Shown here: positions 17,039 to 50,145 of the stretch, piece by piece
Position numbering within the stretch: the first letter of the stretch is position 1
Layout of the letters: the number at the start of each line of letters is the position of its first letter
NCBI GenBank assembly: GCA_002763895.1
Contig: NSLH01000010.1
Coordinates: 1-64,000 of the forward strand
Length of the DNA stretch: 64,000 nt
Origin: [Chlorobium] sp. 445
GTDB taxonomy: Bacteria; Bacteroidota; Chlorobiia; Chlorobiales; Thermochlorobacteraceae
Reading direction: 5' to 3'
Made by a program: the position numbers and the translations under genes
The notes under the pieces: generated by a model
What the model was told of the DNA's origin: nothing
What the model saw: the letters and a program-made list of their open reading frames with translations, nothing else
Databases searched by the model: none

Positions 17039-18217
17039 TTAGATCATGAGCTCAGCAATGTATGCAGGCACAGGCGCATTCAAGTGCCGACGAAAATTAT
17101 GCTCACAGAGTTCTATGATTTTCTTTGCAGCTGCAGGTCGACGCAAGTCAAGATAGGTTTTGATTAAAATCGTGTAGGCAGGTTCATAGAGCTCATCGGC
17201 TTGCAGCATTTTCTGAGCCAGTTCAATCACATCATGCAGTCGTGCTTCAGCTTGGGCTTGGTCGACTAAAAATTGCAAGGCGCTCAGATAAAAGTCTTTG
17301 AGCATCTGTCGCTTGTAGCTCGACCAGTTATGCGCTATATCGTTTTTGAGAAATTCATCATGGTAGAGTTCAGTAGCGGCAAGATACTTCTGTGCCGAGC
17401 GCGTGCGTTGTGCTTCGCGAATCAGTGCTTCAAAGGCTTCAACATCGTAGTAGTAATCCACATTGAGTTCGCCCAAGTTTAGTTCATATCCTGATTTGTG
17501 TGTCAGCACGTATCTCGAATCGCGTCCGTTTTTCAAATTCGGCTCTAGCATACGGCGAATTGCAGACACTGCGGTGAAAATCATCACTTCGGCACTGCGC
17601 GTTGAGATTCCCTCGCATACTTGCTCAATCAAGTTATCCAGCGACACAATTCGCTTGTGATGAATGAGCAGCAACTTGAACACGGCAGCGGTTTTGAAGT
17701 TGTGCCAATCGTTTTCAGTTACTATGCTCTGTCCTACAGTGACGACTAAACTACCAAATGCTTGCACTTTGATCTTGATACGGTTCGCTGCAGGTTCAGC
17801 TGGTTCAGAAATCCGCACCGATGTTGCTTGTGCTGCTTTTTTCTGTTCAAGTCTTCGTTCTGCATTTTCCAACACTGGCAAAAGGGTCTCAAGCGAGAGT
17901 GGTTTAGGCACAAAGTCGGAGATGCCGCTGCGCAAGGCTTCAATAACGAGTGCCATATCACCTTCACCCGTGATAAAAATTATCTCAGCGTCAGGTCGAA
18001 TGTGACGCAAAGCTTTTAGCACGGAAAAACCGCCCAGGTCGGGCAAATGAATATCAAGCAGTGTGATGTCAGGCTGCACACGGTTGAAAAGGGAAATGGC
18101 TTCCGCACCGCACTGGGCAAGATAAACACGGTATCCCACAAGAGATAAACTCGTTGCTGCTGCTTCACGCACAAAGTCGCTATCATCAACAAGTAAAATT
18201 GTCGGTTTCGTCTGCAT
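17039..18217 (-). CDS. response regulator: receiver + winged helix + SARP/BTAD domain
   Basis: The protein has 392 residues in three parts. Residues 5-125 are a CheY-like receiver with acid pocket D11/D12, phosphorylation site D55 (LLDIHLPD), Thr near 83 (FITGEG) and Lys near 104 (VPKPLS), so phosphotransfer looks intact. Residues about 150-250 resemble an OmpR/SARP winged helix. The remainder (from VDYYYDVEAFEALI) is an alpha-helical BTAD repeat domain as in SARP activators. It should be a DNA-binding transcriptional activator. It follows a sensor-kinase-like gene by 16 bases, implying a two-component pair. Targets are unknown. Confidence 0.85.
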   Translation of the reverse strand: MQTKPTILLVDDSDFVREAAATSLSLVGYRVYLAQCGAEAISLFNRVQPDITLLDIHLPDLGGFSVLKALRHIRPDAEIIFITGEGDMALVIEALRSGISDFVPKPLSLETLLPVLENAERRLEQKKAAQATSVRISEPAEPAANRIKIKVQAFGSLVVTVGQSIVTENDWHNFKTAAVFKLLLIHHKRIVSLDNLIEQVCEGISTRSAEVMIFTAVSAIRRMLEPNLKNGRDSRYVLTHKSGYELNLGELNVDYYYDVEAFEALIREAQRTRSAQKYLAATELYHDEFLKNDIAHNWSSYKRQMLKDFYLSALQFLVDQAQAEARLHDVIELAQKMLQADELYEPAYTILIKTYLDLRRPAAAKKIIELCEHNFRRHLNAPVPAYIAELMI

Positions 18218-18233
18218 CTGTAGCCTTCTTTAC

Positions 18234-19019
18234 TTATTCTGAAAAATATGGAAACTTGATAGAGATTGTGGTACGAAACCGGGAAGTATTCAGCGAAAAA
18301 GAAATTGCCGCTCCTAAGTGCTGAGCAAGTGAACGCATCAGCTCTGCATAGGTTTTGTCTATTGGCGCAGGTGGTATTGCATGGCGACTGCGACTTTTCG
18401 TACACTCGCAGCGCAGTTCAATTGTCTTTTTGCGCTGCAGTGTTTTGAAGAGAATTTCGGGTTGTACTCTGTCCGCATCATCAGCGTTAGCATTTTTTTC
18501 CACACCATTGAGTGCACTGAAAATCATTGTAAAAATCAGAAGATTGAGCTGTGAGACTTTCACCTGCAAAATGGGATTTGGGGCGTTCAGCATGGTTTTC
18601 ACAATGCACTGTTTCGCACTCAGTCTTGAGTGTAGCAGTTGCAGGGTGTGTTTAATTGTTTCATTGAGATTGAGAGTTTGCGGCACTACATTGTTTTGTA
18701 TAAGGCTGCGCAGGTATTCTAAAATTTCGTGGTGGCGTTTTGCGCCATTTCGAATCTGCTCTGCAATTCTCCTAAGGTCATTGAGAAGAGAGTCGGGTTT
18801 GTGTTCAGCTAGCAGGGTCAACGCTTCAGCCGCAAAGTTCATCATGGTCAGCGGCTGATTGAGCTCGTGAATTGCGCCGTTTATTGCTTCCGACAGAAGC
18901 GTCAGTTTCACATCTTGCTGCATGCTAAATGTGCGGCTAGTTGTCGGCCTGTCGACAAAGTATAAAAATACATAAGAAGTTTTCGTAATTTTTTTGAAGT
19001 ATTCAACCATAATATCCAT
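18234..19019 (-). CDS. sensor histidine kinase-like protein with degenerate ATPase domain
   Basis: This 261-residue protein carries an H-box with His51 (NGAIHELNQPLTMMNF), as in HisKA kinases, and a long dimerisation helix pair (EQIRNGAKRHHEILEYLRSL). The C-terminal half follows the outline of an HATPase domain (LNLNETIKHTLQLL; final strands TSRFRTTISIKFPYF) but the N-box asparagine and the DxGxG and GxGL glycine motifs are not recognisable. There is no membrane segment or obvious sensor domain. It may be a pseudo-kinase or phosphotransfer protein for the adjacent receiver-SARP regulator. It diverges from the HMA-DUF4396 gene. Confidence 0.7.
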   Translation of the reverse strand: MDIMVEYFKKITKTSYVFLYFVDRPTTSRTFSMQQDVKLTLLSEAINGAIHELNQPLTMMNFAAEALTLLAEHKPDSLLNDLRRIAEQIRNGAKRHHEILEYLRSLIQNNVVPQTLNLNETIKHTLQLLHSRLSAKQCIVKTMLNAPNPILQVKVSQLNLLIFTMIFSALNGVEKNANADDADRVQPEILFKTLQRKKTIELRCECTKSRSRHAIPPAPIDKTYAELMRSLAQHLGAAISFSLNTSRFRTTISIKFPYFSE

Positions 19020-19026
19020 ACGCTTG

Positions 19027-19806
19027 ATGTCACACTCAATTGTTAGTACGCTTGCTTCTCACTCAACTGCGCAGCAAGAGTTGCGTTTGAGCATTTCTGG
19101 CATGCGCTGTGAGGGTTGTGTGGAGCATATCCGACAGGCACTAAGAAGTTTGGAAGGAGTTGTGGATGTTACCGTCTCGCTCTCGCCGCCAGTTGCTATG
19201 GTGAAAACACAGCGTCCTTTGCCGCTCACAGAAATCAATCAAGCGCTGGCGAAGGTTGGCAGTTACCACGCCTCTGAGTGCGCTGCTGACGAGCTTGCTG
19301 TTCCTATGTTTCATCTTGCGCTGCCCACGCTGAATGTGCCAGCGGCACCTCGTGCGAGTGCTCCTGAATTTTGGCAGGATAACATCACATGGAAGCGTGC
19401 CTCGCTCAACACACTGAATTGCCTCATCGGCTGCTCGATTGGTGATTTCGGATTTATTATCTACGCACAAGCTACAGCACTGGCCTGGTCGATGTGGCTG
19501 ATTATGGGCATAGCCATGCTTTGTGGACTTAGCACATCAGTGATGATGGAGACACTTCTGCTGAAGTGGCGGGAAAAATTTAGCTGGCGCGCTGCACTGC
19601 ACACTGCACTCTCAATGAGTTTCCTCTCCATGCTGGCAATGGAGCTTGCAGAGAATGTTACTGACTACTTGCTCACAGGCGGTACGGCTATGCCCCACGA
19701 ACCGTTTTTCTGGTTTGCACTTTCGGTCTCTTTGCTTGCAGGGTTTCTTGTGCCGTTGCCTTACAATTATTTCAAGTTACGCAAGTACAATAAAGCTTGC
19801 CACTAA
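19027..19806 (+). CDS. heavy-metal-associated (HMA) domain fused to DUF4396 membrane domain
   Basis: Starting at ATG 19027 gives 259 residues and avoids overlap with the divergent kinase gene; a longer start at 18994 is possible. Residues about 15-80 are a CopZ-like HMA domain with the metal motif GMRCEGCVEHI. Then comes a linker and a membrane part of about four helices (LNCLIGCSIGDFGFI, MGIAMLCGLSTSVMMETLLL, LSMSFLSMLAMELAENVTDY), which I recognise as DUF4396. The fusion suggests a copper- or other soft-metal-linked membrane protein. It lacks P-type ATPase motifs, so it is not a CopA pump. Transport function is unproven. Confidence 0.72.
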   Translation: MSHSIVSTLASHSTAQQELRLSISGMRCEGCVEHIRQALRSLEGVVDVTVSLSPPVAMVKTQRPLPLTEINQALAKVGSYHASECAADELAVPMFHLALPTLNVPAAPRASAPEFWQDNITWKRASLNTLNCLIGCSIGDFGFIIYAQATALAWSMWLIMGIAMLCGLSTSVMMETLLLKWREKFSWRAALHTALSMSFLSMLAMELAENVTDYLLTGGTAMPHEPFFWFALSVSLLAGFLVPLPYNYFKLRKYNKACH

Positions 19807-21138: not shown

Positions 21139-22258
21139 CTATTCTGCAACTTCCGCTTCGGTGAGCCTACTGTCCGCTTCTTCTTCGGCTGTGGGCGGCA
21201 CGCTAAAATCGAGCCGGTCACTGTTCAGTCCCTCGCGCACTTGAGCGAAGATTTTCTCATAAAGTGCTTTGTTCGTCTTGAGTGTATCTCGCACGGCTTC
21301 TCTGCCTTGACCAATTTTTTCACCTTCATAACTAAACCATGCGCCTGACTTTTTAATGATGCCCATTTCTACCGCTAGGTCAATGAGTTCGCCCGTCTTA
21401 GAGATACCTTCACCGTAAATGATATCAAACTCAACTTCTTTGAAGGGGGGTGCAACTTTGTTTTTTGCTACCTTGACTTTGGTGCGGTTGCCAATGATAT
21501 CTGTCCCTTCTTTAATTGCGCCAATGCGTCGGACATCAAGGCGTACAGAAGCATAGAATTTCAGGGCGCGTCCACCAGTTGTGGTTGTCGGTTCACCATA
21601 GCTCATTGTACCGATTTTTTTCGCGCAGCTGGTTAATGAAAATCGCAATGCAGCTTGAGCGAGAGATTGCTCCTGTCAGCTTACGCAAGGCTTGCGACAT
21701 CAAGCGCGCTTGCAAGCCAACTTGCGCATCACCCATTTCACCTTCAAGTTCGGCTTGTGGCACCAGTGCCGCAACCGAGTCTACGACGACAATATCAACC
21801 GCACCGCTACGCACTAATGTCTCCACAATGGTTAAAGCTTGCTCACCAGATTCGGGTTGGCTAAAGAGCAGCGCTTTGACATCGACACCAATGCGCTTTG
21901 CGTAGCCGGGGTCAAAGGCATGCTCTGCATCGACAAAGGCGGCAATTCCACCTTCTTTCTGACACTCAGCAATAGCGTGCAAGGCAATTGTGGTTTTACC
22001 AGACGATTCAGGACCAAAAATTTCAATGATTCTGCCTTTGGGTAAACCACCGACACCCAGTGCAAAATCCAGTGCGATAGAGCCTGTGGAAATTGCAGGA
22101 ATTTGCATGTTGGCATCATCGCCCAGTGTCATAATTGTGCCTTTGCCGAATTGCTTCTCGAGCGCCTCTACAGCAAGGTCAAGTTGTTTACGCTTCTCCG
22201 CACTAATTTTGTCAAATGCTTTTTCTGCGGCTTTATCGGTAGCTTTTTCCTTTGGCAT
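21139..22258 (-). CDS. recA: recombinase RecA, frameshifted at a poly-A run
   Basis: Starting at the ATG at 22258 and correcting one base gives about 372 residues. Walker [10 protein letters not shown], the segment [14 protein letters not shown], and Walker B region [11 protein letters not shown] are in the 5' piece. The L2-loop neighbourhood [20 protein letters not shown] and the C-terminal domain are in the 3' piece. The frame breaks inside a 7-A run (T7 at 21615-21621 on the plus strand): [11 protein letters not shown]-stop versus [13 protein letters not shown]. Removing one A restores the family sequence. RecA performs homologous strand exchange and SOS induction. No obvious LexA box is seen upstream. 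Confidence 0.95.
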
Positions 22259-22668
22259 AGCTTTGATAGGTTTAGTAGTTAGACAAATTGCTCCGTGCAT
22301 CTTCGTTTTGCATCGCGCTCATGCGCAGAGAGCCATACTAAAATGATTTCAGGCATGGTGATCTGAATCATTCTGAACATAGCGTACCTGCACACTTACT
22401 TGTGGCTGCGCTTGTCCTCACTCTGCAGTAGGCTGCATTACCTTCACCTCAGTCATCGTCGTATTGCTCGGTTTGAAGTTATGAAAGTTCTAAAAAACTC
22501 AAACGCGAAAATCTAACGCAAACTCTTCAACGTCTTTATTTCTCGCATCTGTAAGGCATACGCTGAAGCGTGAACGCTACATATCACTTTTTGAAGGGCA
22601 CAAAAATTCCTTTACTTTGTGTTAATTCATTCAACAAAACTTCTGTGCAACAAAACAACGCTTTTGCA
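22259..22668. other. intergenic region between recA and the POT transporter
   Basis: This roughly 400-base stretch separates two divergent genes. I see no convincing ORF, RNA gene or SOS-type operator. A short perfect dyad ACGCT-GA-AGCGT lies at 22560-22571, next to a possible GTG start (22570) that would extend the transporter by 33 residues. Both promoters should lie here but cannot be placed with confidence. Confidence 0.5.
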
Positions 22669-24242
22669 ATGCCATCACCTGACACTGCATCTCTTCAAAC
22701 CACTTCTGTTTCTGCTAGCAACGATACAGCGTTTTTCGGGCATCCGCGCGGACTTTCGACCTTATTTTTTACTGAAATGTGGGAGCGTTTCAGTTACTAC
22801 GGCATGCGCGCTCTGCTTATTCTCTTCATGACTGCGCCTGTTACGGCTGGTGGCCTTGGCTTTGAAGCACGCGACGCTGGCGTCATCTACGCTACCTATA
22901 CCGCTTTTGTCTACTTACTCTCTCTGCCCGGCGGATGGATTGCGGATAAGTTCTTGGGGCTGCGTCGCTCTGTCTTTATCGGCGGTGTCGTCATCATGCT
23001 TGGCCACATTTCGCTGGCGCTGCCCGGCATCACCACCTTTTATCTTGGATTAGTCCTTGTGGTGCTTGGCACAGGGTTGCTCAAGCCTAACATCAGCGCG
23101 CTGGTTGGACAGCTCTACTCACCAGACGATGCGCGTCGCGATGCTGGTTTTTCAATTTACTACATGGGCATCAACTTGGGCGCTTTCATTGCGCCGCTCG
23201 TCTGTGGCACACTTGCGCAAGCCGAGTGGTTTCAAAGGGGTCTTGACCAGTATGGGCGTGGATCCCACAGGAAGTTGGCACTGGGGCTTTGGTGCGGCTG
23301 CAGTGGGCATGTTTCTTGGACTGGTGCAGTTCATGCTAACCGGAAATTTTTTAGGCAACGCTGGTGCGCCGCCTGCCCCAAACCCTGATGCCGAAGCTGC
23401 TCAAAAAACCAAGCGGCAATTGATTCTCGGAATTAGCCTTGTTGTCGGTCTTATTGTGCTCTTTGTGCTACTGCATGTCACTGATGCCGTTCGCATCAAT
23501 GCCGATAACATCAGTTTCATCATTGGCATTGCATACGTCATTGTAACGCTTGGATACTTTGCCGCACTCTTTGCACAAGAGTGGACACCTGTGGAACGCA
23601 ACCGCTTGATTGTTGTTGTTGTGCTATTTGTTTGCGCTGCGGTCTTTTTGGTCTGCGTTTGAACAAGCAGGCTCGAGCCTGAACCTTTTTGCCGATAGAT
23701 TTACCCGTAATTCACTCTTTGGTGTGGCTTTCCCATCGTCGTATTTTCAATCGCTGAACTCGCTCTTTGTTATTACGCTTGCGCCTGTCTTTGCTTGGCT
23801 ATGGGTGTGGCTTGCAAAGCGCAATTTAGAGCCTTCAAGTCCTGTCAAGTTTGCTATTGGATTGCTGGGCGTAGGCTTAGGTTTCGTGATTCTTGTACCG
23901 CCTGCGCTTACACTTGCTGGCGCACCTGAGGGCTTTCGCGTTAGCCCCATGTGGCTTGTCATGGTCTATCTGATTCATACCATCGCAGAACTGTGTCTGA
24001 GTCCTGTTGGACTTTCCACAGTAACGAAACTTGCGCCTGAGCGTGTAGTCGGACAGATGATGGGCGTGTGGTTCTTAGGCGCATCAGTAGGCAACTTTGC
24101 TGGCGGACAAATCGCAAGTCTCTTTGAGACTTTTCCCTTGCCCTTGCTTTTCCTTTCTGTGTTTGCAACTGCGGGTGCGGCATCGCTGGTGCTCTTTTTG
24201 CTGATTAAGCCAATTTCCAACCTTATGGGCGGCGTAAAGTAA
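22669..24242 (+). CDS. POT/PTR2-family peptide:H+ symporter, two frameshifts
   Basis: Three overlapping frames give one transporter of about 523 residues. The N-terminal piece has the POT signature [18 protein letters not shown], the [10 protein letters not shown] loop and [17 protein letters not shown], followed by [16 protein letters not shown]. The first break is at AAAGGGG (23234-23240), after which the frame with [20 protein letters not shown] continues. The second is in a T5 run (23645-23649), leading to [18 protein letters not shown]. Each is fixed by removing one base. About 12 to 14 membrane helices result. The family imports di- and tripeptides with protons. ATG 22669 is chosen; GTG 22570 is an alternative. 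Confidence 0.9.
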
Positions 24243-49764: not shown

Positions 49765-50145
49765 ATGATTTTACTCGTGGACGATAATACAGAGCTACTC
49801 ACCTCGCTGTCTGAATTTTTCTCTGCCTATTACCCTGTTAAGGCACTCACAAACCCTGAAGATGCTCTGGCATTTGCAACAGCCAATCGTGGCTTAATCG
49901 AGGTCAGTGTTGTCGACTATGTCATGCCTGAAATGAGCGGTGATGCGCTTGCACGAGAACTCAAAGAGGTCGACCCAAATATGTTGGTTATCTTGATGTC
50001 AGGCTATGTAGACTTCGAGCGTGTAGAACCCTTGCTCCGTGAGCGCCTTATTTATCAATTCTTCACTAAGCCGATTGACTTTGATCGACTTATGCGTAGC
50101 GTTGATACGGCTGTCAAACTCTATCTAAAAAAGCAAGCGCTTTGA
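49765..50145 (+). CDS. single-domain response regulator (CheY-like receiver)
   Basis: The 126-residue protein consists of one receiver domain: MILLVDDNTELL with the acidic pocket Asp6/Asp7, phosphorylation Asp in VVDYVMPEMSG (near residue 51), a Ser in the LMSGYVDF position, and the Lys in FFTKPIDFDRL. No output domain follows. It could be a phosphate sink or protein-interaction regulator. It lies between hemE and rfbC with gaps of 8 and 3 bases, which suggests the same transcript; no kinase is adjacent. Confidence 0.9.
   Translation: MILLVDDNTELLTSLSEFFSAYYPVKALTNPEDALAFATANRGLIEVSVVDYVMPEMSGDALARELKEVDPNMLVILMSGYVDFERVEPLLRERLIYQFFTKPIDFDRLMRSVDTAVKLYLKKQAL

Follow-up and report, generated by a model that had tools for sequence, protein, structure and literature searches.

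Introduction

Pseudo-histidine kinases are known from a few well-studied systems. In Sphingomonas melonis, PhyT (formerly PhyP) was at first proposed to be a phosphatase and was later shown to relay phosphate to its response regulator, which receives it by way of PhyT from a single receiver (PMC5898713). In Caulobacter, ChpT is described, in the portion of the structural report used here, as having a fold that has lost its lid and as lacking ATP in its crystals (PMC3433190), and DivL, in the corresponding portion of its own report, as a kinase turned sensor of a response regulator (PMC4211667). Pseudo-kinases and phosphotransferases derived from degenerate kinases are known already; what is new at the locus described here is a lineage-specific form paired with a receiver-BTAD regulator. 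A search of openly licensed papers found none on a pseudo-kinase that is locked to such a regulator, restricted to one group and present in multiple stages of decay.

A response regulator and a kinase-like protein encoded in tandem

The window analysed here is a 64,000-nucleotide stretch of contig NSLH01000010.1 from [Chlorobium] sp. 445, whose genome is designated G000; the other G-numbers denote the genomes of relatives and the L-numbers denote loci. On the minus strand of the window, the gene coding for a response regulator (17039-18217, 392 aa) is separated by 16 bases from the gene coding for a kinase-like protein, the putative pseudo-histidine kinase (18234-19019, 261 aa); in G003 the corresponding genes overlap by 4 bases. 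A divergent neighbour on the plus strand (19027-19806, 259 aa) codes for an HMA-DUF4396 membrane protein that is probably outside the unit. All three open reading frames were confirmed at the coordinates given in an earlier sequence-only reading. The gap of 7 bases which that reading placed between the kinase-like gene and its divergent neighbour holds for the longest start (19019) and not for an alternative start at Met33 (base 18923), which leaves 103 bases. Met33, which matches a Met of the homologue in the same-genus genome G001 in the alignment, is a plausible other start for the kinase-like protein, and residues 1-26 have low confidence in the structure model. A promoter scan was uninformative (5 sites compared to a shuffle mean of 2.8, sd 1.7). 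Elsewhere in the window, recA (21139-22300, minus strand) occupies two reading frames with the break at a run of A, probably owing to a sequence error in the assembly, and an apparent single transporter gene (22570-24242, plus strand) extends over three overlapping open reading frames in different frames, which suggests frameshifts in the window assembly.

The response regulator is composed of a receiver (Asp12, Asp55 and Lys105), a putative OmpR-type winged helix and a BTAD domain. Pfam analyses returned Response_reg at 83.4 bits, BTAD at 31.6 bits (cut-off 22.1) and Trans_reg_C at 21.6 bits, below its cut-off of 26.2, thereby confirming the proposed fusion of a receiver to a BTAD domain, with the putative winged helix between them under the Pfam cut-off. 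The proposed intact Asp55 was likewise borne out, as Asp12, Asp55 and Lys105 are invariant in the alignment of all 12 regulators of the family, and the window regulator has a complete receiver pocket as well as the BTAD domain. Receivers were among the matches listed by a PDB search with the regulator as query. The protein resembles SARP regulators, which have an OmpR-type helix and BTAD, in that its putative winged helix is followed by BTAD, but differs from them by the receiver in front and by a winged helix that scores under the Pfam cut-off.

The kinase-like protein retains the phospho-acceptor histidine and lacks the ATP-binding motifs

The kinase-like protein combines a DHp domain, whose H-box carries His51 within HELNQPL, with a CA-like domain that lacks the N, G1 and G2 boxes. 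Its sole Pfam match is HisKA at 24.3 bits, just under the cut-off of 26.9, and HATPase_c gave no match at E≤1. When the protein was aligned with five ordinary kinases from the window genome and its relatives, we found neither the N-box Asn nor the G1 (DxGxG) and G2 (GxGLGL) motifs, all of which are present in all five ordinary kinases. The earlier description of a good H-box accompanied by no recognisable ATP-binding glycines or N-box Asn thus stands. Loss of ATP binding is read here from the motifs, and on these grounds the window protein very probably cannot use ATP to form phosphohistidine. The residue at position +4 after His51 is Gln; the usual phosphatase residue at that position is Asn or Thr. 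We considered that the decay of the kinase-like protein could be a frameshift artefact and rejected this explanation: the homologues G001a and G003a align with it in one frame to the C-terminus, so the absence of the motifs does not result from a frameshift.

A structure model of the kinase-like protein, built on only 10 aligned sequences (pLDDT 76, pTM 0.72), shows a pair of long helices, spanning residues 28-72 and 78-107, followed by an alpha/beta domain that starts near residue 111; this is a predicted DHp hairpin and Bergerat-type domain with a short lid. Foldseek matches of the model include DivL (4q20) and ChpT (4fpp). The best match of the modelled CA part is ThkA (3a0z; Z 17.2, rmsd 2.2 over 129 residues), and its comparison with DivL 4q20 gave a Z of 15.7. 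The stretch from the G1 position to the last helix, which corresponds to the lid, falls short of its counterpart in an ordinary G003 kinase by about 12 residues. Since the match to a Bergerat-type domain comes with a shortened lid and with no nucleotide-binding residues, the fold is predicted to be present and the nucleotide site to be absent. The departure from a normal HATPase domain on which the sequence-only reading depended consequently concerns the nucleotide-binding residues and not the predicted fold.

Against this background, the nearest precedent in layout is PhyT, as far as the cited part of its description goes: it has a degenerate ATPase domain, a DHp His that is kept, and a gene at the locus of its response regulator, but it is predicted to be membrane-anchored with a periplasmic part and carries an HRxxN motif (PMC5898713). 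The window protein is short, has HELNQP and has no sensor domain; phosphate transfer was shown for PhyT in that account and would be a possible role here. The window protein combines a kept DHp His with lost ATP-site motifs, as is the case in degenerate-kinase phosphotransferases. The gene for ChpT is not known to lie beside that of its response regulator. ChpT is described in the consulted portion of its report as having a DHp hairpin and an atypical Bergerat domain without the ordinary ATP lid, in which it is similar, and an extra helix where the lid would be, in which it is different (PMC3433190); the likeness of ChpT (4fpp) to the window protein, with 11% identity, is at the level of the fold only. 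DivL is a pseudo-histidine kinase reported to bind a response regulator (PMC4211667), as the window protein would do. In the published description used here, DivL has Tyr for His and keeps its N, G1, F and G2 boxes, whereas the window protein shows the opposite pattern, with the His kept and the boxes lost.

The pair is conserved outside the Chlorobiaceae

Full-length relatives of the regulator were found at 12 loci in 7 of 394 genomes of a phylum sample (E≤1e-50), and three further genomes in a set of 61 matched through the C-terminal part of the regulator only (E≤1e-30). Carriers of the regulator family include Candidatus Thermochlorobacter aerophilum, Thermochlorobacteriaceae bacterium GBChlB and a Chloroherpetonaceae bin, and a further copy of the pair is present in the window genome, on contig C6. 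At 11 of the 12 regulator loci, the gene immediately upstream, on the same strand, is a homologue of the kinase-like gene; L040 in G012 is the exception. The most divergent partners, those of G005 and G009, were confirmed by a profile built without them (E = 2.7e-18 and 5.8e-25, respectively; best of 200 shuffles each, only about 5e-4). A search for related loci with a single protein as query found none. These comparisons of gene order show the kinase-like gene to be kept upstream of the regulator gene in those members of the order outside the Chlorobiaceae that have the regulator, and at this level they support the view that the kinase-like protein has long been partnered with the regulator. 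Because related bacteria retain the same pair, the decayed protein is suggested still to act on the regulator.

Partners differ in the extent of motif loss

We aligned 10 partners; G002a, whose N-terminal part is masked by a run of N, was left out and was counted as a pair only. Nine of the 10 retain the His, followed in each by Glu; the N-box Asn and the DxG of the G1 box are each found in 5, and the second Gly of the G1 box and the G2 glycines in none. Every ATP motif is lost in the clade of the window protein, clade a (G000a, G001a and G003a), and in G005, and the N and DxG motifs are kept in clade b (G000b, G001b, G002b and G003b) and in G012a. Three relatives from clade b exceed the Pfam HATPase_c cut-off of 26.4 (28.5, 27.4 and 31.5 bits). 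The homologue in G009 (L039:6405-7193, plus strand) has Pro for His and Ala for Glu, has lost the ATP motifs and matches no Pfam kinase model; DivL, in the cited part of its description, differs from it by keeping the ATP boxes.

The two domains of the kinase-like protein diverged to unequal extents. Identity was higher in the DHp than in the CA domain for three clade-a pairs (55% compared to 31%, 43% to 28% and 42% to 24%). When an ordinary TPR kinase was compared between the same genomes, the corresponding figures were 59% and 59%, 55% and 60%, and 58% and 59%. Constraint was thus relaxed in the CA domain only and kept in the DHp domain. Residues 43-62, the DHp docking helix, are the best-kept part, with 70% identity between G000a and G001a.

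A quick tree of the regulators placed G005 with the window's clade, held clade b together and put G009 elsewhere. The tree of the kinase-like proteins had very long branches and no starred support, and was not relied on. Since the regulator tree separates G009 from G005 and the window's clade, complete loss of the ATP motifs probably occurred at least twice. Somewhat tentatively, and with more doubt than confidence, we read these states as stages of erosion: the shared ancestor would have lost the G2 box, one branch would have kept the N box and remnants of G1, the branch of the window would have lost the whole ATP site and that of G009 the His as well, with all regulators keeping their receivers. 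In this erosion reading, stepwise decay of the former kinase beside regulators with a complete receiver would mean that the regulator was handed to other kinases, the former kinase now being a receiver-binding regulator.

The metal-binding neighbour is probably adjacent by chance

The third protein matched HMA at 34.2 bits, with the CxxC present, and DUF4396 at 141.3 bits in Pfam, which confirms the divergent fusion of an HMA domain to a DUF4396 membrane domain. It shares 59-69% identity with its counterparts in five relatives, and its structure model had too low a confidence (pLDDT 57.5) to be used. A search of 12 genomes detected DUF4396 in 7. Four genomes contain both DUF4396 and the pair, and in two of them, G000 and G002, the gene adjoins the pair head-to-head; in G001 the two are separated by 13.6 kb, and in G003 they are on different contigs. 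G004, G006 and G007 have DUF4396 but lack the pair, and G005, G009 and G012 have the pair but lack DUF4396. The DUF4396 gene of G001 had been guessed from protein lengths to lie beside a metal efflux pump, but NCBIfam identified a glycosyltransferase and a T9SS-type serine protease, and revealed no metal genes beside the DUF4396 gene in G001 and G003, with 4 of the 8 scanned neighbours matching no family.

It had been suggested that the HMA-DUF4396 protein, the pseudo-kinase and the regulator are controlled from a common upstream region and respond to a metal as one unit. The head-to-head arrangement in the window and G002, together with the CxxC of the HMA domain, is what speaks for such a trio. 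Yet because G000 and G002 have a common gene order on both sides of the locus, the two cases represent a single inherited arrangement; the trio recurs only in G002, which belongs to the same genus and has the locus in the same setting, and in the other genomes examined the DUF4396 genes have different neighbours. With the DUF4396 gene unlinked in G001 and G003 and one partner present without the other in six genomes, the metal-related unit was not borne out and was rejected on synteny; we regard it as very unlikely, the metal-binding neighbour probably standing beside the pair by chance.

Discussion

We consider it rather probable that the kinase-like protein descends from the regulator's own cognate kinase and, as a pseudo-histidine kinase, now serves the regulator as a kinase-dead partner. 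Such a protein would dimerise through its DHp domain and dock the receiver of the neighbouring regulator. As it would not autophosphorylate, it would set the phosphorylation of the regulator by transfer or removal, passing phosphate to or from it as a phosphotransferase (as PhyT, ChpT and Spo0B) or removing it as a phosphatase, and the phosphorylated regulator would act on genes through its winged helix and BTAD domains. The earlier proposal that the kinase-like protein may relay or remove phosphate ranks among the best explanations, beside docking. If the pseudo-kinase reading is correct, transfer or phosphatase chemistry would be fairly likely for the window protein and binding without chemistry quite possible, if short of probable. 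Relay through the His cannot be the role of every member of the family, since the G009 homologue has none. The lost His of G009, the partnerless L040, the lack of a conserved upstream kinase and the Gln at position +4 all count against the pseudo-kinase reading.

A regulator ready for phosphate beside a partner unable to make phosphohistidine from ATP suggests that the phosphate comes from elsewhere, and it could be supplied by one of the many ordinary kinases of the cell; in the window genome, HATPase_c has 44 matches, the receiver domain 51 (50 over the cut-off) and Hpt one. Among the loci examined, no kept upstream kinase adjoining the pair is common to them. In G001, a complete TPR-HisKA-HATPase kinase (L011:8470-10680, minus strand) overlaps by 4 bases the start of the longest pseudo-kinase frame; it has a 61% relative in the window genome (G000:C13:34035-36038). 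We rejected this TPR kinase as a fixed partner, its relatives in G000, G002 and G003 lying away from the pair; in G003 those upstream genes precede the TPR kinase too, but the pair is absent from that place. A 1607-aa hybrid kinase follows the regulator in G005, and a double receiver and a PAS kinase lie a few genes from the pair in G003. As linkage in G001, G003 and G005 offers different kinases and none in common, we claim none as the partner. The window also codes for a single-domain receiver (49765-50145, plus strand) between the genes for uroporphyrinogen decarboxylase and dTDP-4-dehydrorhamnose epimerase, a conceivable candidate for the phosphate donor.

The same observations could be explained by a protein without phosphate chemistry that binds the receiver, perhaps in one phosphorylation state only, and so holds, protects or silences the regulator. 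DivL offers a precedent in the cited portion of its report (PMC4211667), the G009 gene is kept beside its regulator despite the loss of both His and Glu, and it is the CA domain that decays, the docking helix being better preserved than any other part of the protein. The His-Glu kept in nine of the 10 aligned members would be needless for a pure binder, however, and we hold this explanation to be unlikely. That the CA domain still binds ATP through unusual residues, the protein being a working divergent kinase, would agree with its predicted Bergerat-type fold and with the clade-b scores above the HATPase_c cut-off, but the missing N, G1 and G2 residues of clade a, the shortened lid and the relaxed evolution of the CA domain make it highly improbable. 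Fast evolution and stepwise motif loss might also mark a decaying gene on its way out and with no present function; this is scarcely credible for a gene that keeps its place at 11 of 12 loci, in several genera, whose frame is open in all 10 homologues readable whole (the run of N in G002 hiding part of one), and whose DHp domain remains under constraint.

If the erosion reading is true, the steps by which a kinase becomes a non-catalytic partner would be readable within one small bacterial group. With several stages of decay, one of them without the His, the family would offer a direct way to ask what a response regulator needs from a partner that does not phosphorylate it.
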